Below the pieces are notes generated by a model. The model searched no databases, was not told where the DNA came from, and saw only the letters and a list, made by a program, of their open reading frames with translations. From a virus: a stretch of DNA of 39,418 nt. Shown here one piece after another: positions 1-39,418 of the stretch (position 1 is its first letter; every line of letters begins with the position of its first letter). The stretch lies in the IMG/VR virus record IMGVR_UViG_3300029953_000079, positions 1 to 39,418 of that record; one strand, written 5' to 3'. The translations under genes were made by a program, and so were the position numbers.

Positions 1-62
1 ACATCCACATGGTCACCATGGCCGACAGTATAATGACCCGGCTCTGTAATTTTAATACTCAT
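1..62 (-). CDS. 51-bp-repeat protein A, N-terminal part (continues at 38765-39383)
   Basis: These are the first 20-odd codons of array protein A. The gene starts at the ATG at 60-62, reads leftward off the window start, and resumes at 39383. The encoded N-terminus begins MSIKITEPGHYTV and is identical to that of the neighbouring copy that starts at 1064. The upstream A/T-rich context (AATAAAAATATG) is the same for both and has no clear SD. Across the join the complete product would be 226 residues. The function is unknown. Confidence 0.65.
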   Translation of the reverse strand, partial: MSIKITEPGHYTVGHGDHVD

Positions 63-104
63 ATTTTTATTGCTCGTTGTCCGGAAATACGGTGGTTTCG
101 AAAA

Positions 105-1064
105 TTAATCAGGCAAAACGGACGTGTCGTACGTCACGACCTCACCCCCGGACTGGGTGATGACCGGGGCGGACGTTTCCCGCGTCCAGACCTCACCCCC
201 GGTCATGGTGATGACCGGGGCGGACGTTTCCCGCGTCCTGACCACGCCCCCGGTCATGTGGATGACCGGCACGGACGTGTCCCGCGTCCAGACCACGCCC
301 CCGGTCATGTGGATGACCGGCACGGACGTGTCCCACGTCCAGACCACGCCCCCGGACTGGGTGATGACCGGGGCGGACGTGTCGTACGTCACGACCTCAC
401 CCCCGGTCATGGTGATGACCGGCACGGACGTTTCCCGCGTCCCGACCACGCCCCCGGACTGGGTGATGACCGGGGCGGACGTGTCCCGCGTCCCGACCCA
501 GCCACCGGACTGGTGGATGACCGGGGCGGACGTGTCGCACGTCACGACCTCACCCCCGGTCATGGTGATGACCGGGGCGGACGTTTCCCGCGTCCAGACC
601 TCACCCCCGGTCATGGTGATGACGGGGACGGACGTTTCCCACGTCCAGACCACGCCCCCGGACTGGGTGATGACCGGCGCGGACGTTTCCCGCGTCCAGA
701 CCACGCCCCCGGACTGGGTGATGACCGGCGCGGACGTGTCGTACGTCACGACCCAGCCACCGGACTGGGTGATGACCGGGGCGGACGTGTCCCGCGTCCC
801 GACCTCGCCCCCGGTCATGGTGATGACCGGGGCGGACGTGTCCCGCGTCCCGACCTCGCCCCCGGTCATGGTGATGACCGGGGCGGACGTGTCCCGCGTC
901 CAGACCACGCCCCCGGTCATGTGGATGACCGGGGCGGACGTTTCCCACGTCCTGACCTCGCCCCCGGTCATGGTGATGACGACCCCCACACCCGTGCCGT
1001 GGACATCCACATGGTCACCATGGCCGACAGTATAATGACCCGGCTCTGTAATTTTAATACTCAT
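105..1064 (-). CDS. 51-bp-repeat protein B, predicted beta-solenoid, function unknown
   Basis: The product has 319 residues: a unique N-terminus of about 27 residues followed by 17 tandem units of 17 residues, for example VITMTGGEVRTWETSAP. Variation is confined to a few positions: T or H, MT or QS, E/V/W, R/W/G/V, and W/R/Y/C followed by D or E. The units look like a small set of sub-blocks reassorted. The protein ends in TSVLPD, the same last residues as the exonuclease upstream, so its 3' end was taken from that gene by recombination. Regular Gly-Gly turns and alternating beta-prone residues suggest a solenoid or fibre; this is inference. The leftward frame is preferred because it has a conserved start, fits the operon direction, and in copy A ends in unique sequence. 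The rightward frames are open only because of the repeat. Confidence 0.6.
   Translation of the reverse strand: MSIKITEPGHYTVGHGDHVDVHGTGVGVVITMTGGEVRTWETSAPVIHMTGGVVWTRDTSAPVITMTGGEVGTRDTSAPVITMTGGEVGTRDTSAPVITQSGGWVVTYDTSAPVITQSGGVVWTRETSAPVITQSGGVVWTWETSVPVITMTGGEVWTRETSAPVITMTGGEVVTCDTSAPVIHQSGGWVGTRDTSAPVITQSGGVVGTRETSVPVITMTGGEVVTYDTSAPVITQSGGVVWTWDTSVPVIHMTGGVVWTRDTSVPVIHMTGGVVRTRETSAPVITMTGGEVWTRETSAPVITQSGGEVVTYDTSVLPD
123..990 (-). repeat. 51-bp tandem repeat array (array B)
   Basis: About 17 direct repeats of 51 bp. Each contains a core like GGTGATGACCGGGGCGGACG with alternative flanks. Because 51 is divisible by three and the units lack stop codons in several frames, long overlapping open frames occur on both strands. 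There are no unique spacers, so this is a coding minisatellite and not a CRISPR array. Confidence 0.9.
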
Positions 1065-1128
1065 ATTTTTATTGCTCGTTGTCCGGAAATACGGTGGTTT
1101 CGAAAATTAATCAGGCAAAACGGACGTG
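935..1128. repeat. 194-bp block duplicated across the window junction
   Basis: This stretch is identical to 39316-39383 joined to 1-126. It holds the last codons of the exonuclease gene, the short intergenic gap, and the start and first repeat of an array protein. Both copies end at the octamer CGGACGTG (119-126 and 1121-1128), which also recurs inside the 51-bp repeats. That is the expected product of unequal recombination between the exonuclease 3' end and a repeat unit, giving a tandem duplication with a 1002-bp period. Reads or a chimeric molecule from a mixed population could also explain it. Confidence 0.8.
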
Positions 1129-2003
1129 CGGTTGTATGGCACCCTCATTTTGATCGGTTGAACCCCCTGCGGGTAGCCTGGCCAAGCGTTAAGCTTCATA
1201 CAATGGATCAACAGTCCCAGGTTTCGGCGATATTCGCGACGACCGTTTTCGATATCTGTCGTGTCCATGGCGAATAGCTGAATCGAATGCGGTGCGGATT
1301 TTTCCACAGCAATGAACACGAAATGATCTTTTTTATCGCTTGGGTTGCATGCGTTCCACAGATCCAGGTAATAGGCCGCCTGCACGTAATAGCGGCGAGC
1401 CCACAACACCCGGTCAAACTCACAGGCGCGGGCATCTTGGCAGGTCTTGATGTCCACCAACGCCGGGCCGGGGCACACCCAGTCCATGCGAGCCTTGCGC
1501 AACACCATACCTTGCTCCGTGTGGAAGCGTTTGAAAACCGACACCTCGGATTTGCCTTCACGGAATGCGATTTTGCAGGTCGGGTCTTCGGTGACGGCAT
1601 TGACAACGCCGTCCATGGCGCGGATCGCGTCGGGTTTCATAGGTCGTAGCCCTGCGGCTACCTGGGTGGCCTTCCACGCCTGGCAAACCTTGGCGTTGCC
1701 GCTCCATGGCTTCACCTCATTTTTCTCGTTTGTGTAGGTCTCCGGGTAGGCCACAATGCCCGGCAGGGGTTCTCCGGGCGTCAGAATGCGACTATGCACC
1801 ATCCGGCCAACGAAAAGCGCATCGGTGTCCTCGACAGGGTTGTCGAACGCGGCTATGAAATGCGCTGGACTACCCGGCTCCTCGCCGTCCATCGCAATGT
1901 GTTTCAGCATGGAGTTTGACACCCCGGATGCGCTCCTGTAGTCCGCGTCAGGTACGTCGTAAACAACTCCCTCTTGGCCGTCGGTGAAGTTTGGTAGATT
2001 CAT
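1107..2003 (-). CDS. RecE/exonuclease VIII-like PD-(D/E)XK nuclease
   Basis: Predicted 5'-3' double-strand DNA exonuclease for phage recombination, working with the annealing protein just upstream. Numbered from the longer GTG start at 2039, the RecB-type nuclease motifs are in order: Gly-Arg-Met-Val-His (His82), Glu165 in SEVSVF, Asp186 in RKARMDW, the DIKT motif (Asp196, Lys198), and Gln220 with Tyr224 in QAAYY. I prefer the ATG at 2003 (298 residues) because the conserved part begins soon after it. The alternative GTG adds 12 residues. The final residues TSVLPD are shared with array protein B, and the shared DNA is the recombination joint. Family assignment is firm; 5'-3' polarity is from family knowledge. 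Confidence 0.8.
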   Translation of the reverse strand: MNLPNFTDGQEGVVYDVPDADYRSASGVSNSMLKHIAMDGEEPGSPAHFIAAFDNPVEDTDALFVGRMVHSRILTPGEPLPGIVAYPETYTNEKNEVKPWSGNAKVCQAWKATQVAAGLRPMKPDAIRAMDGVVNAVTEDPTCKIAFREGKSEVSVFKRFHTEQGMVLRKARMDWVCPGPALVDIKTCQDARACEFDRVLWARRYYVQAAYYLDLWNACNPSDKKDHFVFIAVEKSAPHSIQLFAMDTTDIENGRREYRRNLGLLIHCMKLNAWPGYPQGVQPIKMRVPYNRTSVLPD

Positions 2004-3740: not shown

Positions 3741-6700
3741 CTACTTCGGCAGCGAGTCGAATTTCGATTTTAAAGCCGCGCGGTCTTGTATAGCCTGCTG
3801 ATATGCCGCCCACTGCGAGTCCGTCAGTTGCGCTTTAAACTGCGCTTCACGGTCCGCGCTCCCGGTGAATGGGGATTCCCGTTGATACCTCGCCTCGATG
3901 TGGGCCGGGGTGTGGCCTTCGGCGACGAGCGCTTTGTATTCGCGTTGCGCGGCGGCGGAGTCGCCAGCTTGGAGGAGATTATCCAACCCCTTGTACACGC
4001 TTTGCTGGTAAACCTCGGCCTCGCGGTTCGCCTGATATTCCTGGGCTTTCGGATCGGGGTTATTTCGGTTGAACTGCGCGGCAGCATCGTACATCTGCGT
4101 GGCGGGGGTGTACTGGCGGCTGGACAAACCCACCTGGGCGGCGGCCAGAGTGCCAAAGGGAGTTTCCCCGCGCTTGGCGGCTCCAGGGCCAAAGCCGGTC
4201 GTGCCGATGGGTGCCAGCCAGCCAAGGGTGTCACGCAAAGCTCGCTCCGCCGCCCGACCGACGCCGGTTCGCGCAACCGTGTCAATGCGGGTTCCAAAGC
4301 GCATGTCGCGGCCGGTAATCACATCGGCGATGGTATGCGGCAGGGGTCCGAGTCGGCCGGCCATAAACGCACCGGGGTCGCTGACCATGTGGAACATATC
4401 TGCCACCAAGGAGCGGATGGAATAGGCGCGGCCTTTGTAAACCACGGAAAGGGCATTTTCCGGCTCCCAATGGGAGTCGCCATTGTTCAGGCTGGCATTC
4501 ACCACTCGGGCCAGGGCATACATGGCGGCAGCCTGTACGACGATAGCGCGGCGCTGGGCTCCCCCGTACTTGGTGAATGCCTGGGCGGTCTGTTTGAACT
4601 CACTACCCAAGAAATCCGGCGCGAGGCAAATAAGCCGGTTGAAGTCCATCATGGCTTTGCTGGTACCCAAGAGCCGGTAATTTTGAAGGCCAAAAGCCGC
4701 GTTGGTTTGGTGCGCCGATATTTCAGAAATCTGGTCCGGGGTCAATTTTTTGCCGTAAAGTTTGGTGTTCGCTTCATTGAGCGCCAAATAATTTTTCATC
4801 TTCATTTTCGGTAAGACATCTTTGAAGATGAAATCCGTCATCCGGCCAGCCACGCGCCCGAGGCCGGGGACGTGTGCCCACAGGCCGCCGTGTGCCCCGG
4901 TTTGGCCTTCCTCGAAGTCCACGCGGTGCGACCCAAAGCCAAGTTCGACGCCATTCCGAACGCCTGCGGCCTGCTCGGGGTTGGTCATGTCGAGCTTAAA
5001 ATCTTTCGTAATGGGGTTTACGCCGTTCCAGACTGAGTGCGTTGCCACGTTGAAAAGGTGGAACATCCCCAAAGCCATTTTGGAGTTTTTCAGGAATGAA
5101 GAGACGGAGAGCGCGGCGTGGCCGGCTGCTCCCCATGGCGTCCGTCGCATGGTTGGGCGTCCGTCCGGTCCCACCGGCCCCGGCTCAGCCTGCCGCCACT
5201 TCGTCCCGTTCAGCTCGTTATTGAGAAACTGGAAGTGGTCCGGGTGAACAAGGAAATCACCTTTGACCAGAACCGGGTTGCCGTGGGGGTCGCTGCCTTT
5301 GTATTGCCACCCCTTCAACGCCCAGTGGTCAATGGCGCGATACGGACGGCCATCCTTGGTCACCGCATCGCCCGGGCGGCGGGTGGCGTCCACCAGCAGG
5401 CGTTTTTTACCCGTGGGCAACACTTCGTAATGGGCATCTCCGGAGATTCTGACGACCGGCGTTCCGTCAGCGCTCTTGGCGTCCTTCAAACCCCAGATGG
5501 CCGCGCGGCTGGAAAGATTCTTGTGGAAAGCTTCGTTGTAGACGGCCACCAGTTTCCCAACGTCCATGTCTTTGGGCTCACCGCCCCGCATGATGCCGTC
5601 AAAATAACTGGGCGTTTCCCTTTGAAGTGAAAAGAATGGGTCGCGCGGATCCAGCTTGGCGCGGAAGTTTCCGGCGCTGCCTTTGCCGGCGGAGGATTCA
5701 TCAGCTTTCGGGGGAGTCTTCCAAATTTGGGGCACGCCGTAATTCTCGCGGCCCTTGTCGATCATGCCGACGTTTTTGGCGTCCTCGAGCTTTGTCTCGA
5801 AGTCGGCTATGATCTGCCGCCCAATTTCCTTTTCGCCGTCGGTGAGTTTCAGGGCCGCGTCCCACACCGGGACATGCTTGCCGCCCGCCACTGCTTCAAG
5901 GTCGGCCCGTTGGGCGCGAAGTGTGCCTTCGTCGCCATTAGCATCAACCCACGCGCTGATAGCCCGGCGGCGAACAGGGTTGGAGACTTTGGATTCAATG
6001 GCCTTGATCCAGCGATATGTTTCATGGCCGGTCTGCTGATCGGCGGCAAACCAATCTTTCATCACCTCGCGGAAATGGGATGAAATCGGCGGATCGTAGA
6101 TGCCGGATTTGAGCGCAGCCCAAGCGGCCCGGACACCACGGGCGGCTTTCTGGTAAGCGTCCTTGGCATCGCCGATGGCGTTCGCAGCAGCGCGGGCAAT
6201 GTTCATCCGCTCCGACATCGGCACTTTGGGGCTGTCAATGTCGGATTTTTCAAGCTTGTCCGTCAAATCCCGCAACGACCTGCCCACCGGCATCATCTGA
6301 TCTTTTGGCAGTGTGCCATCCTCCTGGGCGGCCTTCCACGCATCGGCGAAGGCTCCCTCCGGCATCTGGCGAAACTCATCGTTGTAGCTGTCCATTTCCT
6401 GCCTGGCTGCCGTGCGGGGGTTGGGCTCGCCAACAGCATCGGCAGCGGCCTTGCGCTTCACGACGCCCGCAAATTCATCAATCCGGCTGCGGATGTACCC
6501 CGGCGAGCGCAAAAGCTTTTCGCGCGCGGCCATGGCGGCCGCTTGGGCGTCACGGCGTTCCTGCTGCATCTCGGGCGTGACGCCGCCCTTGCCGGCCGTG
6601 GCGTGGCTCTCCACGTCCAGATTGTCCTTGGGATTGGCTTCCTGTTGCGCGTTGCGAATCGCCTCATTGGCCGCCACGCTGCGGGCGTTGGCGTCGGCGG

Positions 6701-9644
6701 CGTCCTGCTTGAGCTTTTTCCAGTCTACCTCGGGCTCCGCGGGCGGTTCGTTGGCGGTGGCATCTTTGGCGAGGCGCAGCTTGGGTTTGGTTGCCTCACC
6801 CAGGGCCTGGCGCGCGCCGTCCTCGTCAAAATTTCCCGTGTGGTTCTGGCGAATGTGGTCAATCGCCGCGCTGATCGCGTCCGCCACCGTTCCACCAGCC
6901 CGGATGGCGGCTTGCGCCACGCTGACCGCCCGGTCCCACAAGTCAGCAGCGATGCCGAAGGCGTGAAGCTGGCCACCCTTGGCGATGCCGGTTTTTAGGG
7001 ATTCGAGGGAGTCGGCGATGGATCTGGCTTTGTCGCCGATGGATTTTTTAGTCTCTTCCGTGCCTAGCTTCATCACGCGCTCAAGTTCGCTACCAGGCTC
7101 CGCGTGCCCCTCTCGGTCGCCCTGCAAAAACTTCAAGGCCGCATCCTTCAACATTTGCCGGTTGGTCCCCGGCAAATCAAACCCGAACAGGCGCTTGAAC
7201 GCGGCGCGGGCCGCATCGAACACCTGGGCGAAAACTCCCCGGTTGGCGTCGCCTTTGACCAGCCGGGCGATAGCCGCTTCCTCCCGGATCGTCGCGGCGT
7301 CCACGGGGAGGCCCTGGGCGAGCCTTGTTTTACGCTCCGCTGCCATTTCCTCCGGTGTGACCAAATCACGCACCGCCTGCCACGCACGCTGCAAGGCGGG
7401 GTCATACCAGACACCGTGAAAGCCTTCCTCCAGGATCACCGCCTTGGCGCGTTCCGGCGTGCTGATTCGTGCGGCGTTGACGGTGATTTTGTTCCGGCCT
7501 TCGATTTGCGCTCCCCACGGGGCGGATTCATCACGGATTACGCGGACTCCGGACGGGAGTTCGCCTTTGGGGTCTGTGCCCATGGCGCTGTGAACGGCGG
7601 CGGTGGCGTTTTTCAGGTCGCTGGCCTTTTGAAAAGCGGGCTTCGCCCGGACGGACGCTTTCACCGGGCTTTCACCTGCGGTGTCTTCTGGGTTGGCTAA
7701 TTCGGCAACCTGTGGTGCGGATTTCAACGGGTTGGCATTCTTCGCCTGCAACTCGGCCAACCGGGCCGACTGCGCCTTGTTCAGACCAAACGCTTCCTGG
7801 ACAGTTTCGAGGGCGTCCTGTTCGGCGGCGTCACGCGATCGTTCCGCGATCGTTCCGCGATCCTTCCGCGATCCTTCCGCGATCGTTCCGCGATCGTTCC
7901 GCGATCCTTCCGCGATCGTTCCGCGATCGTTCCGCGATCCTTCCGCGATCGTTCCGCGATCGTTCCGCGATCCTTCCGCGATCGTTCCAGCCTCATCTGA
8001 TGGCGGTAAAATGGACAAAGGCTGCTGAAGCTTTGTCCCTTGGAACTGCTGTTGAGCTTCCGCCACGTCATCCGCCGTCACAGGCTTTACTTCGACTTCC
8101 CCGGATAGGCCGCTGGCCGCCATGCGGGCCTGCCGTTCGTTGGAAAAAAGGCCGTAAGGCTCGCCGTCCTGGGTCACGCCCCACTTAGTCGCCCCCTCAC
8201 CCGCCGCCGGCTCGCCCCCAACCACCATTGGAGGCGCGGCCACCACCGGTGCCGGCGTCGGTTCCGCCCCCTCGGCTGGTGCCTTGGCCTGGGGGTTAGG
8301 AAGAGAAAGGGAAGCTGCGGGGGATTCGAGTGGCTCCGAAGGCGTGCCATCATCTGCCGTCATTGACGGCGGTTTGACGGTTGACGGCTTGGCTGGCTGC
8401 ACCTGATTGGCGGTCATCTCCTTTTGGAGTGATGCCAAGTCAGCCAGCGTTACCGGCTTATCTGGCGTCGCGGCTGCCTTTTGGGCAATGGTGGGTTCTG
8501 CTGACGGGGTTCCCGTCGACGCCGCTTTGTCAGCAGACAGCGGTTTGGACTGGTCAGATAGTGCATTTTGTTGAACCGCATTTGCATTTTGTTCAATTTC
8601 CGGTGCATTTTGTTGGACCGCGTTGGGGTCCGCTTGCAAGTCCGCCATCATCCGCGCCACAATCGGGGGATACTTCACGCCGGCTGCTGTAGGCGCGGTC
8701 GGCTCGCCCTGGGGCACAACTTCATCCGCCGGGGCCTTGAAACCCCCACCAGCGGGCAGCGGGGGGGCAGCAGGCGGCATTTCTGGCGGTTGCTCGGCTT
8801 TCCCAAATTGGTGCCGATCACCCATTCCACCAAGCAAAAACATGCTCCCGACGTTCCCAACGGCGTCAATCAAGGCGTCTTGGCGCTGTTCGGGCGGCAA
8901 CTGGCTGATCGTGGCGATTTGGTCGGCTCCAATGAGACCAGCCGCCCCTCCGGCTCCGCCGAGTTTGTTGAGGACCGCCAAAGCAGCATCATTCGATACC
9001 CCCGCTTTGCTGGAGATGGCTTCCGTGATGGCCCCCGTATATTTCCCAACGGTGGGCAGCAGGGTCGCAATCACGGCCTGCTTGGGGTCAAATCCTTCGG
9101 GAGTTGATCCCCAAATGATTGGCGCAGCCTCAGGGATCGCCATATTGGCGGCCAGTTGGGGGACAGACTCCACGATCCCCTTGCCGGCCGCTACAATCGC
9201 CCGCTGGTAGGCTGGCATGGTGCGGATGGTGTCCTCAAGGGGAACATCCTGGCTGGCCTGCTGCGATTCGGCGTTCGACATCCCCGGCGGCAATGGGCTA
9301 AACTCTTCGGCGGTGTGCTCCATCGCCCGCGTGGGGGCCTCGTAAAGAAACTTCCCGGCCGCCTGAAAACCTTGGCCAATTCCGGCCGCTATCCGGCCTT
9401 CGGGAGTTTCTTGAAGTTGCTCCCATGTGGCCGCCCAGTTGCCACCGGCCTGTGGTGGTCCTCCTGCCGTGGTGGCGTGATTGAGAAGTACGTGCCGAAG
9501 GCTGCTCTCCGGGGTGATCGCGGGAAGGTCACCGCTCGGCGCGCGAAATCCGCCGCCGGAAATAACTTCGTCATCCGGCGCTCGAAAACCGCCGCCGGGC
9601 GCTGGGGCGTCCATCACTTCATCGTCTGGCGCTTTAAAGGGCAT
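3741..9644 (-). CDS. Giant virion-associated (DNA-ejection / polyvalent-type) protein
   Basis: The product has 1967 residues and is the last gene of the late operon, directly after two smaller ejection-type proteins. The N-terminus repeats FKAPDDEV/FRAPDDEV-like motifs. It is followed by an Ala/Pro/Gln-rich disordered stretch to about residue 640, including an 11-residue tandem repeat (GTIAEGSRNDR). Around residues 735-750 lies ILEEGFHG, which resembles the metal-binding helix of peptidase-like domains found in large phage polyvalent proteins, although the usual second His is not obvious. The remainder is long helical sequence with a short hydrophobic stretch near residues 1705-1730 (IVVQAAAMYALARVV). 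The likely role is an internal protein injected with the DNA. That role is inferred from size, position and composition. Confidence 0.65.
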   Translation of the reverse strand: MPFKAPDDEVMDAPAPGGGFRAPDDEVISGGGFRAPSGDLPAITPESSLRHVLLNHATTAGGPPQAGGNWAATWEQLQETPEGRIAAGIGQGFQAAGKFLYEAPTRAMEHTAEEFSPLPPGMSNAESQQASQDVPLEDTIRTMPAYQRAIVAAGKGIVESVPQLAANMAIPEAAPIIWGSTPEGFDPKQAVIATLLPTVGKYTGAITEAISSKAGVSNDAALAVLNKLGGAGGAAGLIGADQIATISQLPPEQRQDALIDAVGNVGSMFLLGGMGDRHQFGKAEQPPEMPPAAPPLPAGGGFKAPADEVVPQGEPTAPTAAGVKYPPIVARMMADLQADPNAVQQNAPEIEQNANAVQQNALSDQSKPLSADKAASTGTPSAEPTIAQKAAATPDKPVTLADLASLQKEMTANQVQPAKPSTVKPPSMTADDGTPSEPLESPAASLSLPNPQAKAPAEGAEPTPAPVVAAPPMVVGGEPAAGEGATKWGVTQDGEPYGLFSNERQARMAASGLSGEVEVKPVTADDVAEAQQQFQGTKLQQPLSILPPSDEAGTIAEGSRNDRGTIAEGSRNDRGTIAEGSRNDRGTIAEGSRKDRGTIAERSRDAAEQDALETVQEAFGLNKAQSARLAELQAKNANPLKSAPQVAELANPEDTAGESPVKASVRAKPAFQKASDLKNATAAVHSAMGTDPKGELPSGVRVIRDESAPWGAQIEGRNKITVNAARISTPERAKAVILEEGFHGVWYDPALQRAWQAVRDLVTPEEMAAERKTRLAQGLPVDAATIREEAAIARLVKGDANRGVFAQVFDAARAAFKRLFGFDLPGTNRQMLKDAALKFLQGDREGHAEPGSELERVMKLGTEETKKSIGDKARSIADSLESLKTGIAKGGQLHAFGIAADLWDRAVSVAQAAIRAGGTVADAISAAIDHIRQNHTGNFDEDGARQALGEATKPKLRLAKDATANEPPAEPEVDWKKLKQDAADANARSVAANEAIRNAQQEANPKDNLDVESHATAGKGGVTPEMQQERRDAQAAAMAAREKLLRSPGYIRSRIDEFAGVVKRKAAADAVGEPNPRTAARQEMDSYNDEFRQMPEGAFADAWKAAQEDGTLPKDQMMPVGRSLRDLTDKLEKSDIDSPKVPMSERMNIARAAANAIGDAKDAYQKAARGVRAAWAALKSGIYDPPISSHFREVMKDWFAADQQTGHETYRWIKAIESKVSNPVRRRAISAWVDANGDEGTLRAQRADLEAVAGGKHVPVWDAALKLTDGEKEIGRQIIADFETKLEDAKNVGMIDKGRENYGVPQIWKTPPKADESSAGKGSAGNFRAKLDPRDPFFSLQRETPSYFDGIMRGGEPKDMDVGKLVAVYNEAFHKNLSSRAAIWGLKDAKSADGTPVVRISGDAHYEVLPTGKKRLLVDATRRPGDAVTKDGRPYRAIDHWALKGWQYKGSDPHGNPVLVKGDFLVHPDHFQFLNNELNGTKWRQAEPGPVGPDGRPTMRRTPWGAAGHAALSVSSFLKNSKMALGMFHLFNVATHSVWNGVNPITKDFKLDMTNPEQAAGVRNGVELGFGSHRVDFEEGQTGAHGGLWAHVPGLGRVAGRMTDFIFKDVLPKMKMKNYLALNEANTKLYGKKLTPDQISEISAHQTNAAFGLQNYRLLGTSKAMMDFNRLICLAPDFLGSEFKQTAQAFTKYGGAQRRAIVVQAAAMYALARVVNASLNNGDSHWEPENALSVVYKGRAYSIRSLVADMFHMVSDPGAFMAGRLGPLPHTIADVITGRDMRFGTRIDTVARTGVGRAAERALRDTLGWLAPIGTTGFGPGAAKRGETPFGTLAAAQVGLSSRQYTPATQMYDAAAQFNRNNPDPKAQEYQANREAEVYQQSVYKGLDNLLQAGDSAAAQREYKALVAEGHTPAHIEARYQRESPFTGSADREAQFKAQLTDSQWAAYQQAIQDRAALKSKFDSLPK
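7835..7988. repeat. 11-bp minisatellite, 14 units, inside the giant virion gene
   Basis: Fourteen consecutive units of GCGATCSTTCC, in which the seventh base is mostly in the pattern G,G,C. The 11-bp unit is not a multiple of three, so each 33 bp (three units) encodes one 11-residue repeat, GTIAEGSRNDR, near residues 555-602 of the leftward protein. One triplet is irregular (units 3 and 4 are both the C form). This suggests slippage by single 11-bp units, which must have been compensated to keep the frame. Confidence 0.9.
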
Positions 9645-9653
9645 CGCCTGGGA

Positions 9654-10664
9654 TTATTTACCGCGCTTCACCGCCGCCCGGCCATAGGAATCCACATAGT
9701 TAGCCCACGGCGGCAGGGCGTCATATTCTTCCTGCGAGTTTACGACCGGGCCTTTTGGCTCGGCGGCTGGGTTCGCTCCGCCTTTACCGATCAGAGCGTT
9801 CACCTTGGCCAATGCTTCATCGGCATTTGTTCCCCGACTTGAGTTTGCCAGATATTGCTTGAATGCAGCATTCAGAACGCCAGGAGGTAGCGTCTGCGGC
9901 TTTCCAGCCGCTCCCGGCTTGGGTGGTAGCGGAGGGACTGAGGCAATCGGCTGTGCGGGCGCGGTAGCGCCAGGCGCGCCTGCGGCGGCCACCGAACCGG
10001 GCGAAAAGTCCGCGTCCTGCTCGGCCGGGTCCGCGTCCTGCTCGGCCGGCAGTGCGGCTGCCAAGTTGCCTTGCGGCGCAAAGCGCTGCTGGCCAGGGTT
10101 GAGCGTCACACCACCAGTTCCCAATGGCTGCCCCGACGGTGTCATCGCGGTTGCGCCGCTGGGCACAATCAGCGGCCGGGCCGCCGTCGTGGCGTTGTCA
10201 GCCGCATTATTAGCCACTGCCACTGGGTTCACGACGTTTGCGGCCCCTTGCACGTTCCCACCCCGAGCGAGCAGCATCCCCAAATTACCAGCCATGGTCT
10301 TTTGCACGTCCCCTTCGTTGTGGCCGGTCAAAGCGGCCAGTGCGCCTGTGTACTGCCCGATGGCAGGGTCTTGCAGATCCCCCTTCATTAGCGCGTCGGT
10401 GGCGACCGGCGTGATGTTTTGCAGGGCTTGGACCAAATTGAGTTTCTGGTTAATGTCCGCGGCCTTGGCTTTCTCGGTTTCTGTCTGGGCCCCTACCAAC
10501 CCCGTGCGAGCGGTCGCCTCGTCGGTGTCCGCGTTCGCCTTGTCTGCTTGCGCCCCGTAAAGGCCCGCGCGGGCCTGATACATTGGTAGCCGCGCGAGGC
10601 CGGCCCCAAGATTGCGCAATCCGTTGTTCAAAGGCGCCGCTTGTGAATCCCAGTATTGGCTCAT
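9654..10664 (-). CDS. Putative internal virion / DNA-ejection protein
   Basis: The product has 336 residues, starting MSQYWDSQAAPLNNG. I chose the ATG at 10664 because an earlier in-frame start would overlap the upstream gene. The first 120 residues are Ala/Glu/Lys-rich and helical, with coiled-coil character (GAQTETEKAKAADINQ). The middle is Ala/Gly/Pro-rich and contains a direct duplication of PAEQDAD. It sits between a gp14-like protein and the giant virion protein, the place where podoviruses encode ejection proteins. No enzymatic motif is visible. Confidence 0.55.
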   Translation of the reverse strand: MSQYWDSQAAPLNNGLRNLGAGLARLPMYQARAGLYGAQADKANADTDEATARTGLVGAQTETEKAKAADINQKLNLVQALQNITPVATDALMKGDLQDPAIGQYTGALAALTGHNEGDVQKTMAGNLGMLLARGGNVQGAANVVNPVAVANNAADNATTAARPLIVPSGATAMTPSGQPLGTGGVTLNPGQQRFAPQGNLAAALPAEQDADPAEQDADFSPGSVAAAGAPGATAPAQPIASVPPLPPKPGAAGKPQTLPPGVLNAAFKQYLANSSRGTNADEALAKVNALIGKGGANPAAEPKGPVVNSQEEYDALPPWANYVDSYGRAAVKRGK

Positions 10665-10672
10665 ATGGTCTA

Positions 10673-11389
10673 TTAGTAAAAGGGTTGGGCCGTCAGCGAG
10701 TCCCACGCGGTGGCCTGCCCGATGTTGTTGGATGCGCCGGTGCTAAATTCTGACGCAATCGCTGAATTATTCGCGGCGGACGTCGCCCCACCGGTTGCCG
10801 AGCCGCCTGCCATTCCGGCACTGGCCGCTCCAGCCATGCCGGTCACGGCACCTAACGCCGATATCAGACTGCCCCAGCCGCTGAGCTTGTCACCCTTCTG
10901 GCTGGCGACCTGCATTTCGATCGGCATTAGGCTGGCGTCACCCTGGCTAAAATTGTTGAGAATTCCCAACTTCTGGCTGGCTTGGGCGTTCTTGATGCTT
11001 TGTTGCGTCTCCCAATCCTGATAACTCCCAGCCTTCGCCTGGTTCCCTGCCACAAGATTGCTCCAAGCGGTGCCGGCAGTGCCAGCCCGGCCACTACCAC
11101 CCCCGGTAGGCGCGTTGGCCTGCGCAATCGGCACGGCGGCGGATTGCAACGCCTGTGTGAGATTGGTCCTTGCTGCTGCCCCGGCTGTCAGTTGGTCATT
11201 GGCAACCTGCGGCGTGGATTTGGCAATCGAATTGGTGGTGATCGCGTTGGCCTGTTGCTGGAGGCCTTGTTGTTGGGCATTTTCAGCGGCCCTGGTCTTT
11301 GCCATGGCGCTTTTGGCCTCCTGCTGTCCGGCGATACTGAGGGACGTCCCCGCCACGGCCAATCCGGCTCCAACAAGTGCTAACGGCAT
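10673..11389 (-). CDS. gp14/gp7-like internal virion protein
   Basis: The product has 238 residues. The N-terminus is hydrophobic (LALVGAGLAVAGTSLSIAG) and is followed by Ala/Gln-rich helix. The C-terminal half contains a Gly/Ala-rich hydrophobic stretch (ISALGAVTGMAGAASAGMAGG). This build is typical of small membrane-active ejection proteins of podoviruses. It is one of the few genes with a strong SD: AAGGAGG six bases before the ATG. That SD overlaps the end of the GNAT-like gene, whose stop lies inside this gene's start region, so translation is coupled. Confidence 0.6.
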   Translation of the reverse strand: MPLALVGAGLAVAGTSLSIAGQQEAKSAMAKTRAAENAQQQGLQQQANAITTNSIAKSTPQVANDQLTAGAAARTNLTQALQSAAVPIAQANAPTGGGSGRAGTAGTAWSNLVAGNQAKAGSYQDWETQQSIKNAQASQKLGILNNFSQGDASLMPIEMQVASQKGDKLSGWGSLISALGAVTGMAGAASAGMAGGSATGGATSAANNSAIASEFSTGASNNIGQATAWDSLTAQPFY

Positions 11390-31335: not shown

Positions 31336-31574
31336 ACGGCAAAAATTGCCCAATTTGGCGACAATGTCAAGCGCCGCCGCTGTGCGGGTCGTGGGGAACC
31401 CTCGCGCGCGCGCGCTCCCCGGCGATGGCGATGGCGATGGCGATGGCGATGGCGATGGAGGCAGGAATCCGCAGGATTCCGCAGGATTCCGCAGGAATCC
31501 GCAGGATTCCGCTGCGGATTGTTCCACGTGGAACAATTTACCTTTTTTGTGTCGTTAATCGCACGCCGGCGCAT
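31332..31574 (-). CDS. Possible leader frame upstream of small terminase
   Basis: The product would have 80 residues, starting MRRRAINDTKKVN. In favour: the ATG has the A/T-rich context used elsewhere (AATAAAAATG), it is the first such start after the late promoter, and its stop overlaps the small-terminase GTG as GTGA. Against: most of it translates simple repeats (HRHRHRHRHR from GGCGAT units, NPADSCGI repeats) and the parS palindrome. It may be a translated leader rather than a functional protein. Confidence 0.35.
   Translation of the reverse strand: MRRRAINDTKKVNCSTWNNPQRNPADSCGILRNPADSCLHRHRHRHRHRHRRGARAREGSPRPAQRRRLTLSPNWAIFAV
31393..31518. repeat. Dispersed composite repeat, copy 1
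   Basis: The order is GGGGAACCCTCGCGCGCG, a CTCCCC hairpin arm, six perfect copies of GGCGAT (31421-31456), GGAG, five copies of GCAGGAWTCC (31461-31510), then GCTGCGGA. A copy with the same order, the same six GGCGAT units but three GCAGGAWTCC units lies at 36563-36665. This copy abuts the parS palindrome and lies in the leader of the small-terminase gene. Confidence 0.9.
31518..31537. promoter_or_regulatory. parS-like centromere site (perfect 20-bp palindrome)
   Basis: ATTGTTCCACGTGGAACAAT is a perfect palindrome. Its central 16 bases, TGTTCCACGTGGAACA (31520-31535), match the bacterial chromosomal parS consensus TGTTTCACGTGAAACA with only the two symmetric changes T to C and A to G, which are seen in natural parS sites. 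Its translation in one frame gives FHVEQ, the tell-tale of parS within coding frames. No parA or parB gene is visible, so the site would bind host ParB. It lies between the late promoter and the small terminase gene. Confidence 0.8.
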
Positions 31575-31693: not shown

Positions 31694-32049
31694 GATAAAG
31701 TTGCAGATAATTGTGGACACATAAATAGAATCATGCGATAGTACAGGTGTCGGGGGGCACAACCTCCGGCGGATGAGGGCGGTGAGGCAAGGGCCGAATC
31801 CCGCAGATGTCAGAATGCAGACGGTGTGGCGAACTCTATGGGCCACGGTAAATAATCCATCGGTAATTTTCGGGTAAGCCCCCGCGTGAAAGGGGGGCCG
31901 GATTTGCAAGAACTGCAAAACACCGGGACGAGACGAAAATTGCGGTAATGCGGCATACGAAAGAATGAATCTTTCGTATACGGTGACAAGCCCGAAAAAA
32001 CGCAGAGTCAAAAACCAAAAAGCCGGGCGACCGGCGGAAAGAAAATAAT
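31694..32049 (+). other. Structured leader/intergenic region before the rightward operon
   Basis: About 350 bases without a convincing gene. Hairpins visible on the + strand include GCCCCC/GGGGGC around 31877-31897, a perfect 10-bp stem ATACGAAAGA/TCTTTCGTAT with a 5-base loop (31955-31979), and the GNRA-type hairpin at 32022-32044 just before the first gene. The first 150 bases are G-rich. No known riboswitch or tRNA was recognised. I could not place a convincing rightward promoter; TTGCAG (31701) and TAGAAT (31726) are 19 bp apart, which is too long to trust. Confidence 0.45.
32022..32044 (+). repeat. Leader hairpin element, copy 1 (GCCGG-GCGA-CCGGC)
   Basis: GCCGGGCGACCGGCGGAAAG and the next three bases occur identically at 32022-32044, 34169-34191 and 34499-34521. 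Each is a 5-bp GC stem with a GCGA (GNRA) tetraloop, followed by a purine-rich GGAAAGAAA run. At the first two copies an ATG follows within about 10 bases, so the purine run can serve as the ribosome site. The third copy precedes a decayed frame. Confidence 0.9.
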
Positions 32050-32457
32050 ATGAGAAGCTCACAAGAAATGGTGGAATTGGTCCGCGCCGGCGGCGCGGAT
32101 GTTCGGAAAATCTACGGTGGCGAAAGCTACCGTAGCGGAGGGGTGCTGGTGGTGCACCCTGTCGGTTACTGGGACCAACCGGTCCCGGTACGGGTGGAGA
32201 CGGCCCCCGAGAAAGCGTGGGACGGCACTGGCTACGACGGCCGCGGCCGTCGTTGGGACATCATCCGGCTGGTGCCGGATGCGGCCGGGATGGTCCCGGT
32301 GACCCGCGGCCAGTGGTCGAAACTAGATGAATCCGACCGGGCGGTGGTCGGCGGCGGGGGCTCCTCCAGGTCGGAGGATGGAGCGGTTCATTTCGGCCGA
32401 CCCGGGGCCGACCGGAAAAGCGACATTTCCGGCCTGCTGGCCGGACTGACCGGGTGA
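32050..32457 (+). CDS. Short paralogue of the Csx16-domain protein (domain lost)
   Basis: The product has 135 residues and is the first gene of the rightward operon. It differs at only 11 of 134 positions from the N-terminal part of the 229-residue protein at 32840. The domain itself (SSQEMVELVRAGGADVRK ... HPVGYWDQPVPVRVE ... GTGYDGRGRRWD) is unrecognised. After the TGA at 32455 the DNA still reads PVVVTKM and a stop, which is the first strand and the last residues of the paralogue's Csx16 domain. The 252 bp between them are missing, flanked by TGGTCAC. So this is a real expressed-looking gene with a trimmed C-terminus. Confidence 0.7.
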   Translation: MRSSQEMVELVRAGGADVRKIYGGESYRSGGVLVVHPVGYWDQPVPVRVETAPEKAWDGTGYDGRGRRWDIIRLVPDAAGMVPVTRGQWSKLDESDRAVVGGGGSSRSEDGAVHFGRPGADRKSDISGLLAGLTG

Positions 32458-32497
32458 TCGAGCACGCCGGTGGTGGTCACAAAGATGTGACCCGCCG

Positions 32498-32577
32498 GCC
32501 GGGAGCGCATCCCGGCTTTCACTCCCGCCCCCAAAAAACAAGGGGGCGGAACTGAGAGAATAAACAAAAAAACAAAC
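32498..32577 (+). repeat. Intergenic hairpin pair between rightward genes
   Basis: GCCGGGA/TCCCGGC around GCGCA is followed by CCGCCCCC/GGGGGCGG around an A-rich loop, then the segment GAACTGAGAGAATAAACAAA. The first hairpin recurs at 33537-33555. The second has relatives at 33561-33588 and 34433-34461 in which the loop is replaced by a CCGGCTTGAGCCGG stem. The A-rich segment recurs at 34462-34493. These look like mobile or recombining intergenic modules. Confidence 0.75.
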
Positions 32578-32584
32578 CTACAAT

Positions 32585-32806
32585 ATGAAAATCTGCGCAG
32601 TATACAACACGGACGGAATTATGGAATTCAACCTGAGGCCAGCCGGCCCGATGCTGGACGGTCGGCAACTGCCGGTCGGGCGGGTAACGTTTGATGGAGT
32701 CCACGCTAAAATGCGCGGACTTGGTGAGTTCCGGCTTTATGCATCGGACAAATTCGGGGAATTCAGCCAACGAACCAGGCTGAATATTTTCCCCGTGCAA
32801 GCCTAA
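32585..32806 (+). CDS. Small protein, unknown (rightward operon)
   Basis: The product has 73 residues (MKICAVYNTDGIMEFNLRPA...). It is mostly beta-type with a basic C-terminus. No family is recognised. It lies between the two paralogues. The stop TAA is followed at once by a CCCCTCCCGG-type hairpin. The upstream sequence is A-rich with no clear SD. Confidence 0.5.
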   Translation: MKICAVYNTDGIMEFNLRPAGPMLDGRQLPVGRVTFDGVHAKMRGLGEFRLYASDKFGEFSQRTRLNIFPVQA

Positions 32807-32839: not shown

Positions 32840-33529
32840 ATGAGAAGCTCAAAAGAAATGGTGGAATTGGTCCGCGCCGCCGGCGCGGATGTTCGGAAGA
32901 TCTCCGGTGGCACTAGCTACCGGAGCGGAGGGGTGATGGTGGTGCACCCACTCGGTTACTGGGACCAACCGGTCCCGGTCCGAGTGGAGACGGCCCCCGA
33001 GGGGGCGTGGGACGGAACTGGTTACGACGGCCGGGGCCGTCATTGGGACATCATCCGGCTGGTGCCGGATGCGGCCGGGATGGTCCCGGTAACCCGGGGC
33101 CAGTGGTCGGAACTGGCTGAATCCGACCGGGCGGTGGTCGGCGGCGGGGGCTCCTCCAAGTCGGAGGATGGAGCGGTTCATTTCGGCCGGCCGGGGGCCG
33201 ACCGGAAAAGCGACATTTCCGGCCTGCTGGCCGGACTCACCATCACCGTCCCGCCGGTGGTGGTCACGCGGCACCCAGCTTTGGTCGCTCTCTTGCGGGA
33301 GCGCGGGCTGGTGTCCGGCGACTGCCGGGTGATAGATCACGCTGGCCCGGATGACGTCCGGGGGCAGGACGTAATCGGAGTCCTGCCGCTGTCCCTGGCC
33401 GCGCTGGCCCGGACAGTCACAGAGATTCCCCTGAATCTCACCCCCGAGATGCGGGGGAAGGAGTTGGACCTGGAGACGCTCCGGCGCATTGCCGGAGAAG
33501 AGGTGAAATACATGGTCACAGAGATGTGA
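32840..33529 (+). CDS. Fusion protein with C-terminal Csx16-like (ring-nuclease family) domain
   Basis: The product has 229 residues. Residues 1-134 are the unknown domain shared with the gene at 32050. Residues 138-226 match the Csx16 family (VVA1548-type CRISPR-associated proteins): VVVTRHPALVALL (Arg144-His145), VIDHAGPDDVRGQDVIGVLP with LSLAA after it (Gly180, Leu182-Pro183), and IPLNLTPEMRGKEL (Arg205-Gly206-Lys207-Glu208-Leu209). Csx16 has been grouped with CARF-like ring nucleases that remove cyclic oligoadenylate in type III CRISPR immunity. A phage copy would therefore be a plausible anti-CRISPR. I match the family pattern from memory; activity and ligand are inference. The start follows a CCCGGC-TGAC-GCCGGG hairpin. 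Confidence 0.7.
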   Translation: MRSSKEMVELVRAAGADVRKISGGTSYRSGGVMVVHPLGYWDQPVPVRVETAPEGAWDGTGYDGRGRHWDIIRLVPDAAGMVPVTRGQWSELAESDRAVVGGGGSSKSEDGAVHFGRPGADRKSDISGLLAGLTITVPPVVVTRHPALVALLRERGLVSGDCRVIDHAGPDDVRGQDVIGVLPLSLAALARTVTEIPLNLTPEMRGKELDLETLRRIAGEEVKYMVTEM

Positions 33530-33566
33530 CCCGCCCGCCGGGAGCGCATCCCGGCTTTCACTCCCG

Positions 33567-33708
33567 CCCCCGGCTTGAGCCGGAGGCGGAACTGAAAACG
33601 CGGGCAACCGCCGGCCCCGGCTTGAGCCGGAGGCGGAACTGAAAACGCGGGCAACCGCCGGCCCCGGCTTGAGCCGGAGGCGGAACTGAAAACGCGGGCA
33701 ACCGCCGG
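33567..33708 (+). repeat. Three 47-bp tandem repeats with CCGGCTTGAGCCGG hairpins
   Basis: Three consecutive 47-bp units lie between the Csx16-fusion gene and the next gene. Each contains the near-palindrome CCGGCTTGAGCCGG, then AGGCGGAACTGAAAACGCGG and GCAACCGCCG. They are followed by a single CCCGG-CCGAA-CCGGG hairpin and an A-rich start region. Non-coding; the same hairpin recurs singly at 34440. Confidence 0.9.
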
Positions 33709-33741
33709 CCCCGGCCGAACCGGGAAAACGAAAGAAAAAAT

Positions 33742-34146
33742 ATGACAAAGCAACTATTCGAAGCACTCAGGTCGTGGACAGCGATGGTCGAATGCTGGCT
33801 GGAAAAACAGCATAACACCACGGAAGATCAGGACATAATCCTAAAGCGGATCAATAACTTCGGTGTAGGTATACGACTACGAAGTCCAGAGGCTGGGAGA
33901 TTCCACCAATTGCCAGATGGTGATTTTCTTGAATGGACACAAACTCCACCAAGTCAATCCGGTGATTACTGGTGGTGGAATGAAGATGGCAGGCCGATTC
34001 TTATTGCTATCGGAATTTCGGGGGGCACTGGGGAATGCTTCGCCCAAATAGGCCAATACGGATGGACGGTAGCGCAACCCGTGAAGGAAATGGGCGGGTA
34101 TTGGATGCTGGAGGAAGGCCCGTCATTACCTGTCGTGAAGGGATAG
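33742..34146 (+). CDS. Unknown protein (rightward operon)
   Basis: The product has 134 residues. There is a helical N-terminus with LEKQHNTTEDQDIILKRI, then a Trp-rich middle (PSQSGDYWWWNEDGRP) and ISGGTGECFAQIG. The repeated Trp/Gly-aromatic pattern recalls small phage proteins of DUF551-like style, but I cannot assign it. It lies downstream of three tandem hairpin repeats with the start context AAAGAAAAAATATG. Base composition is less GC-rich than the flanking repeats, as if the gene was acquired. Confidence 0.5.
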   Translation: MTKQLFEALRSWTAMVECWLEKQHNTTEDQDIILKRINNFGVGIRLRSPEAGRFHQLPDGDFLEWTQTPPSQSGDYWWWNEDGRPILIAIGISGGTGECFAQIGQYGWTVAQPVKEMGGYWMLEEGPSLPVVKG

Positions 34147-34195
34147 TCACCTAACCAAATAACCAACAGCCGGGCGACCGGCGGAAAGAAAAAAT

Positions 34196-34402: not shown

Positions 34403-34524
34403 CCCCTCCCGGCCGGTTAGTCACCGGCCTTTCACTCCCGCCCCCGGCTTGAGCCGGAGGCGGAACTGAGAGAATAAACAAAAAAAACAAACCAAAAAGC
34501 CGGGCGACCGGCGGAAAGAAATAG

Positions 34525-36131: not shown

Positions 36132-37020
36132 TTTCTGGTCCTCCTTGTGCGGCTCGTTCCGCGGCATAGCGGGTCTCCCGTTCGGAGGCTCGACGTTTGA
36201 TAACATCGGCGGTGGTAGCCTGTCCGGGAGGAGGTTTGCACACGCCGAAATTTCTAGGATTTGGTTTTTCACCATTGCGGTTAGCGATTCCATGCTTGCC
36301 CCTTTCCCTGTCGGTCTGGATTTGCCGCTCGAGGGCTGCGCGCCAGTCGACGACCGGATTGCGGCCCCACATCCATCCGGCCGCCGAGAGAGCCAGCCAG
36401 GCACCGCGAGCTTCGGGCTCGGTGTAGGTGGCGCCACTCGCTCGGGAATCGGCCAGCCATTTTTGACAATCCTCAAATTTTGGATGGAAAATTCCGCCGC
36501 CGGCGTCCTGGGGGGGAGGTGCCGGGGGCGCGGTCATTTGCTGCCATTTGCTGTCATTTGTCGGGGAACCCTCGCGCGCGCTCCCCGGCGATGGCGATGG
36601 CGATGGCGATGGCGATGGCGATGGAGGCAGGAATCCGCAGGAATCCGCAGGATTCCGCTGCGGAATGACAGTTTTTGACTCTTTTGGCGGGTCTGGCCAC
36701 CTACTTCGCCCCCGCGCACGTTCTTGCCATTGAATGACTTGTAAATATTTCCGACCGTCAACATCGTAAAAGAAAACGAGTCTGGCGTCGGCAAGTTGCT
36801 GGCAAAGCGCTGCGGATTCCTGCGGATTGACAGCAAGTTGCGGGTTTTGCTCATTCCAGACCGCAAAAGCCTCCGCCCAAAGGACTGAATTTCGCCCGTC
36901 GTGACGACCATAATCATCGACCTGGGTGAGGATGGAAATGTAGAGCCGGCAAGCAACATGTGAGACCGCATTCCAGCGCGGGCTGGTGCGGATTCCTGGG
37001 CGTAAAAAACGTTGGGGCAT
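36124..37020 (-). CDS. Phage replication initiator-like protein (winged-helix)
   Basis: The product has 298 residues. The N-terminal domain (RWNAVSHVACRLYISILTQV, DDYGRH, QQLADARLVFFYDVDGRKYLQVIQWQ, then RPDP-like WPDPP) is the typical phage initiator/DnaD-like N-terminal pattern. A Ser/Pro low-complexity linker at about residues 125-155 is encoded by copy 2 of the dispersed repeat. The C-terminal part has a Trp-rich helix (ARGAWLALSAAGWMWGRNP) and a basic tail. It is paired with the helicase loader; the genes overlap by eight bases. The origin is not identified. Confidence 0.7.
   Translation of the reverse strand: MPQRFLRPGIRTSPRWNAVSHVACRLYISILTQVDDYGRHDGRNSVLWAEAFAVWNEQNPQLAVNPQESAALCQQLADARLVFFYDVDGRKYLQVIQWQERARGRSRWPDPPKESKTVIPQRNPADSCGFLPPSPSPSPSPSPSPGSAREGSPTNDSKWQQMTAPPAPPPQDAGGGIFHPKFEDCQKWLADSRASGATYTEPEARGAWLALSAAGWMWGRNPVVDWRAALERQIQTDRERGKHGIANRNGEKPNPRNFGVCKPPPGQATTADVIKRRASERETRYAAERAAQGGPENV
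36563..36665. repeat. Dispersed composite repeat, copy 2
   Basis: Same order as copy 1 at 31393: GGGGAACCCTCGCGCGCG, CTCCCC, six GGCGAT units (36587-36622), GGAG, three GCAGGAWTCC units and GCTGCGGA. It is in frame inside the replication initiator gene, where it encodes the SPSPSPSP linker. Unlike copy 1 it is not followed by parS. Confidence 0.9.
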
Positions 37021-38764: not shown

Positions 38765-39418
38765 TTAAACCTCTTCCGTTTTAGCGTCCGTTTGGATGAC
38801 CGGTTGGGACTCATCGAACCTCTCGACCACACCCCCGGACTGGGTGATGACCGGGGCGGACGTGTCCCGCGTCCTGACCTTGCCACCGGTCATGTGGATG
38901 ACCGGGGCGGACGTGTCGCACGTCACGACCTTGCCACCGGTCATGTGGATGACCGGGGCGGACGTGTCGCACGTCACGACCTCACCCCCGGTCATGGTGA
39001 TGACCGGGGCGGACGTTTCCCGCGTCCTGACCTCACCCCCGGTCATGGTGATGACGGGGACGGACGTGTCCCACGTCCTGACCTCACCCCCGGTCATGGT
39101 GATGACGGGGACGGACGTGTCCCACGTCCAGACCACGCCCCCGGACTGGGTGATGACCGGCGCGGACGTGTCGTACGTCACGACCCAGCCACCGGACTGG
39201 TGGATGACCGGGGCGGACGTGTCGCACGTCACGACCTCACCCCCGGTCATGGTGATGACCGGGGCGGACGTGTCGTACGTCACGACCTCACCCCCGGTCA
39301 TGGTGATGACGGGGACGGACGTTTCCCACGTCCTGACCTCGCCCCCGGTCATGGTGATGACGACCCCCACACCCGTGCCGTGGACATCCACATGGTCACC
39401 ATGGCCGACAGTATAATG
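38765..39418 (-). CDS. 51-bp-repeat protein A (5' end wraps to 1-62)
   Basis: With the wrapped 5' end this is a 226-residue protein: the same unique N-terminus as protein B, then ten 17-residue units and a degenerate last one ending VVERFDESQPVIQTDAKTEE. It has unit types not found in B (GGKV forms) and lacks others, so the arrays have diverged or been reshuffled. Because its C-terminus is unique and not borrowed from the exonuclease, A is probably the original gene and B a duplicate. Unknown function; predicted repetitive beta fold. Confidence 0.6.
   Translation of the reverse strand, partial: HYTVGHGDHVDVHGTGVGVVITMTGGEVRTWETSVPVITMTGGEVVTYDTSAPVITMTGGEVVTCDTSAPVIHQSGGWVVTYDTSAPVITQSGGVVWTWDTSVPVITMTGGEVRTWDTSVPVITMTGGEVRTRETSAPVITMTGGEVVTCDTSAPVIHMTGGKVVTCDTSAPVIHMTGGKVRTRDTSAPVITQSGGVVERFDESQPVIQTDAKTEEV
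38826..39370 (-). repeat. 51-bp tandem repeat array (array A)
   Basis: About ten units of the same 51-bp repeat as array B, with variants GACTGGGTGATGACC and GTCATGTGGATGACC at the variable positions. No unique spacers. Collapse or expansion of this array in the assembly is possible. Confidence 0.9.
39384..39418. repeat. Terminal overlap: window end equals window start
   Basis: These 35 bases are identical to positions 1-35. Joining the ends after removing one copy gives a molecule of 39383 bp and restores one uninterrupted leftward frame: start codon at 60-62, stop at 38765-38767, 681 nt, divisible by three. The natural reading is a circular or circularly permuted genome rather than a linear fragment. 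The overlap lies inside a larger 194-bp block that also occurs at 935-1128, so the join is repeat-mediated and the number of intervening copies is not certain. Confidence 0.85.

Follow-up and report, generated by a model that had tools for sequence, protein, structure and literature searches.

The 39,418-base window, meaning the whole stretch of DNA analyzed here, is an IMG/VR virus record that encodes large and small terminase subunits, a DnaC-like helicase loader, a replication initiation protein and a RusA-like resolvase. The phage origin claimed in the first-pass annotation agrees with the source of the record and with its terminase and replication genes. Nearly the same sequence recurs on a 9.5-kb contig from metagenome 3300029954, at 99.97% over 7.4 kb. 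The gene of interest lies inside an island of small plus-strand open reading frames (ORFs) at about 32.05–35.56 kb, flanked by minus-strand packaging and replication genes. Such islands are usual sites of accessory and counter-defence genes. Several of the island ORFs begin with an A-rich leader (e.g., AAAAATATG), and repeated GC-rich hairpin elements lie between them. The features at the locus are as follows.

32012–32044, plus strand: 33-nt GC-hairpin leader element 5' of the stand-alone copy (repeat family D6; recurs at 34159 and 34489)
32050–32457, plus strand: stand-alone copy of the N-terminal domain, 135 aa
32465–32532, plus strand: putative relics of a deleted Csx16 domain, 3' of the stand-alone copy (repeat families D14 and D7)
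32585–32806, plus strand: small candidate ORF of 73 aa between the two copies (from the ORF list only)
32840–33529, plus strand: fused gene, 229 aa, an orphan N-terminal domain joined to a Csx16 domain (ORF and family match)
32840–33241, plus strand: N-terminal orphan domain, residues 1–134 (second copy at 32050)
33260–33517, plus strand: Csx16 domain, residues 141–226 (PF09652; DNA-level match to 33260–33517)
33266–33274, plus strand: TRH motif, residues 143–145, candidate cA4-binding or catalytic site (R144 and H145 99%–100% conserved)
33338–33340, plus strand: conserved histidine H167 (89% of viral and 100% of cellular relatives)
33377–33388, plus strand: GVLP motif, residues 180–183 (G180, L182 and P183 99%–100% conserved)
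33452–33466, plus strand: RGKEL motif, residues 205–209 (R205 and G206 98%–100%, L209 98%–99% conserved)

An antisense ORF at 32849–33766 was rejected as a coding frame because the plus frame has both a family match and a constrained copy of its N-terminal part. No type III CRISPR locus was found at or near the fused gene, which is surrounded by phage genes, and Rfam produced no match anywhere in the window.

Several other repeats were observed. A hairpin-bearing 47-bp unit is repeated 3.2 times directly past the Csx16 gene (33564–33715), and a shorter piece of it occurs again at 34438. The two ends of the window (1–1277 and 38796–39418) have 35 identical bases in common within a 51-bp repeat array; therefore, ORFs 9–1277 and 38796–39416 may form one repeat protein over a circular join. 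An array of GGCGAT hexamers with a 10-bp GCAGGATTCC-type array behind it is present at two sites (31421–31512 and 36587–36658; about 95% identical over 100 bp), one within the small terminase ORF and the other within the replication-initiation ORF. Fourteen repeats of an 11-bp unit, CGCGATCGTTC, are located at 7834–7988 inside a 1967-aa ORF.

Csx16 family membership, conserved residues and predicted fold

The C-terminal half of the fused protein had been annotated as Csx16-like from its motifs, and profile searches confirmed this homology. Pfam PF09652 (Cas_VVA1548/Csx16) matched residues 141–226 with a score of 53 bits against a gathering cut-off of 25 bits (E = 4.1e-14; profile positions 2–90 of 91), and three PADLOC Csx16 models also matched the 229-aa protein. 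The outcome with TIGR02620, the model named in the first-pass annotation, was mixed: nearly the full model length aligned over the same stretch, but the score of 20.9 bits fell below the NCBIfam cut-off of 46.35 bits. The window protein is thus a member of the Pfam superfamily and not of TIGR02620. PF09652 was the only family returned by a Pfam scan up to an E value of 1, and DUF1874 (AcrIII-1) was absent.

All of the RH, GxLP and RGKEL residues cited earlier were found in the window protein, and the putative active site is intact. Among the relatives compared (61 viral and 82 cellular), R144, H145, G180, L182, P183, R205 and G206 were each conserved at 98%–100%, with R144 and H145 present without exception in the viral set; loss of the Arg-His and RGKEL residues, which had been raised as an objection to the annotation, was not seen among these relatives. 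The viral clade does depart from two positions that are fixed in cells, with leucine instead of alanine at 148 and replacement of the tryptophan at 151. To our knowledge, no mutational study has mapped the catalytic residues of Csx16.

AlphaFold2 modeled the Csx16 domain from 52 aligned sequences with a pLDDT of 96–98, as five strands with intervening helices, and this model supports a five-stranded Rossmann-like fold. Structures aligned to it with VIA-align include cA4- or cA6-bound CARF domains (Cam1, PDB: 8t65, Z 4.4; Cad1, PDB: 9c68, Z 4.1; SiRe_0806, PDB: 9jxx, Z 4.0), but these matches are weak and tied with methyltransferases. Foldseek found nothing at an E value of 0.001 in the PDB or BFVD, and a sequence search of the PDB produced DARPin hits alone, apparently by chance. 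The N-terminal domain was mostly at a pLDDT of 35–70 in the full-length model, and the stand-alone copy reached 38.

The N-terminal domain and its duplication

The N-terminal 134 residues had been described as a domain of no recognized family, and scans of four libraries left that description standing: Pfam, NCBIfam and PADLOC gave no match, and all PHROGs hits were sub-threshold. The only relatives detected in viral contigs came from the same phage, named phages yielded a single chance hit (E = 9), and no relative was found in the loci retrieved. The C-terminal extension of the nearest Csx16 relatives (contigs L032 and L094) was compared with this domain, and no relationship was detected (hhalign probability 2%).

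A second copy of the domain, overlooked in the first-pass annotation, stands alone upstream and shares 91% DNA identity over 437 nt with the fused gene in its N-terminal portion. Behind this first copy, 16 nt at 32465–32480 are identical to 33252–33267, where the Csx16 portion of the second copy begins, and 59 nt at 32474–32532 are 97% identical to 33513–33571, which comprises the last codons of the second copy and downstream sequence. The two pieces meet at TGGTCAC. The simplest reading of these repeats is that the entire fused gene was duplicated and the Csx16 domain was then lost from copy 1, probably by deletion between the two sites with TGGTCAC. An additional event is suggested by a weaker piece of 21 nt.

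The two N-terminal copies differ at 11 residues, compared with 20.4 expected under random placement of the same substitutions (0.02% of trials were as low). Their dN/dS is 0.29, a pairwise value in which the constraint is not assignable to either copy separately, and it speaks for a functional N-terminal domain that is not bound to Csx16.

A virus-side clade of Csx16

Motif scans of IMG/VR located relatives of the Csx16 domain in 66 contigs, and a second alignment and an earlier scan contributed a further 15 and 1, respectively, for a total of about 82 viral contigs, some of which are the same phage sampled repeatedly. The closest are 71%–75% identical to the Csx16 domain of the window. The same alignment, used with one motif only, found no relatives in 84,980 prokaryote species genomes, and tblastn queries with the window protein and a further two members of the clade detected none in 50,697 phage records. 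In the reverse scan, motifs of the cellular type identified 95 relatives in genomes versus two in viral contigs. A motif-free Pfam search of 299 Acidobacteriota and 396 Actinomycetota genomes matched 14; profile scores assigned all 13 placeable ones to the cellular type, and, in a tree that included these matches, a single change separates cells from mobile elements.

The virus-side clade, with 61 viral and 2 plasmid rows, received an SH-aLRT support of 98, and a larger tree with 74 viral rows (distinct domains) and 2 plasmid rows gave 99; both trees were built by a quick method from about 100 columns, with most rows obtained by motif. The branch between this clade and cellular Csx16 measures 0.88 to 1.14 changes per column.

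Gene neighborhoods were also compared. The Cas10 palm domain was absent from all 50 viral records carrying the clade, and it was present in all five cellular genomes tested. Pfam families among 50 neighbors of cellular Csx16 included RAMPs (10), Cas_NE0113 (8), adenosine deaminase (7), Card1 (4), Cas_APE2256 (4) and Cas1 (2), and Csx1-type genes are part of this set. Among 105 neighbors of viral Csx16 are genes for a terminase small subunit, an integrase, a family A DNA polymerase and a DNA methylase; in the 25 of 27 families listed, no Cas family was present except a second Csx16 gene on one contig (L062). Terminase_6N was detected in 19 of the 50 viral records at an E value of 0.001, with 11 over the cut-off; phage identity is supported for some of these contigs rather than for every one. 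No conserved neighbor of viral Csx16 was found, and the largest neighbor cluster appears to consist of antisense frames of Csx16 itself.

Viral members are mostly about 90–130 aa long, and at least a dozen are longer by 50 or more residues, although these lengths are approximate because starts were picked by eye from open frames. The additions comprise a MarR-like winged helix (L077; E = 4e-4, under the Pfam cut-off), cysteine-rich CxxC N termini (L028/L059, L049 and L064) and large C-terminal extensions (L018, L032/L094, L066 and L081). The fusion in the window is thus one instance of a wider habit.

Two large viral contigs carry tandem arrangements. Contig L062 (261 kb) has two adjacent Csx16 genes at 9938–11293, the second of which is extended N-terminally by about 190 residues. 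In contig L092 (321 kb), a duplicated region at 3751–6155 contains a pair of truncated Csx16 copies, an arrangement that recalls the duplication and loss in the window; an intron was considered for this split gene and rejected, as it reads as two truncated copies and lacks an Rfam match.

Among 28,114 phage genomes, two had earlier been reported as Csx16 carriers (PMC12409355). The family and the cA4 activity of one cellular member were already known, and what appears to be new here, judged from sequence, is a virus-side clade in about 80 metagenomic contigs that was missed by named-phage collections. No account of this clade or of its fusions was found in the open-access journal papers searched that mention Csx16.

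Proposed function and relation to known systems

One purified cellular Csx16 fully degraded cA4 and left cA6 untouched (PMC12409355). Because the family-wide residues are intact, we infer that the window protein probably removes cA4 during infection. The gene would then encode a phage counter-defence protein, a type III anti-CRISPR that works as a cA4 ring nuclease and whose accessory domain is removable, and we assign this reading a probability of roughly 0.7. In an infected host, Cas10 of type III CRISPR would produce cA4, which switches on CARF effectors; the virus-clade Csx16 domain would bind and linearize cA4 so that the effectors stay off, and the N-terminal accessory domain, able to stand alone, would probably add targeting, oligomerization or a second anti-host activity. 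This anti-type III reading is supported by the cA4 activity of the cellular enzyme and by the lack of Cas10 in the 50 viral records; it is weakened by the missed TIGR02620 cut-off and the low Z scores of about 4. Given its place in a clade spread over about 80 viral contigs, the gene probably helps the phage to silence a host alarm.

The viral domain might instead act as a sponge that binds cyclic oligoadenylates without cleavage, with an equal effect on the host. Sponges are a known viral strategy, the poorly active Csx15 has been discussed as one (PMC12409355), and the viral substitutions at positions 148 and 151 point the same way; we nevertheless consider a sponge unlikely because the viral clade keeps every residue common to the active cellular family, including the invariant R144 and H145. 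Slightly less probable again is that the clade targets another cyclic nucleotide or defence, such as the cyclic trinucleotides of CBASS, which would make it a counter-defence protein but not an anti-type III CRISPR. The long branch to cellular Csx16 and the window's lack of a known type III CRISPR host favor such a target, but the conserved core is the same as that of the cA4-specific Csx16 (PMC12409355), and a fold shared with CARF domains would suit linear or cyclic oligoadenylates. A third possibility, that function resides in the N-terminal domain and that the Csx16 domain is decaying or incidental, as retention of the former alone in copy 1 and the dN/dS might imply, is very improbable because the Csx16 domain of copy 2 is intact in every conserved motif and recurs in many unrelated phages that lack this N-terminal domain.

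A broader version of the cA4 ring nuclease reading is more speculative. The viral branch of Csx16 could be a large and old group of type III anti-CRISPRs with a modular build, pairing a cA4 ring nuclease with accessory domains that can be exchanged; in the window, the accessory domain would work both fused and alone, as a two-part cassette, and would have a new, independent anti-defence activity. We hold this extended proposal only tentatively. If the viral proteins are active, they would join AcrIII-1 and AcrIII-2 as another widespread class of cA4 ring nuclease in viruses, which would point to type III CRISPR as a common pressure on uncultured phages, and the varied added domains would be concrete candidates for novel counter-defence functions.

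In common with CRISPR-associated Csx16, the window protein has a PF09652 match over the cut-off, the RH, GxLP and RG.EL residues and a predicted five-stranded core. It differs in being phage-borne, in lacking Cas10 or cas neighbors, in belonging to a separate clade below the TIGR02620 cut-off and in its N-terminal fusion. The only Csx16 genes located in named phages are those of the Methanobacterium viruses Drs3 and PhiF3, which are likewise virus-encoded and annotated as Cas_VVA1548/Csx16, but these are unfused genes of archaeal viruses on long branches outside the clade of the window protein. Its nearest relatives in named records are Deinococcus pDEIPR02 (47%) and Allomeiothermus pMESIL02 (39%), both within the virus-side clade; these are plasmid-borne, and the stretches that were read contain no gene annotated as cas. 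The pDEIPR02 protein is Csx16 alone, and pMESIL02 (L007, 6004–8019) encodes a 671-aa protein that opens with a virus-clade Csx16 domain. AcrIII-1 (DUF1874) and AcrIII-2 (a viral SAVED protein) are viral blockers of type III CRISPR that degrade cA4 (PMC12409355; PMC12751052), but they belong to other protein families than the window protein, and neither was matched in the Pfam scan. A comparable fusion habit is seen in phage and plasmid Crn4b (PMC12830947), members of a ring nuclease group, Crn4, with a fold reported to be unrelated to those of other ring nucleases.
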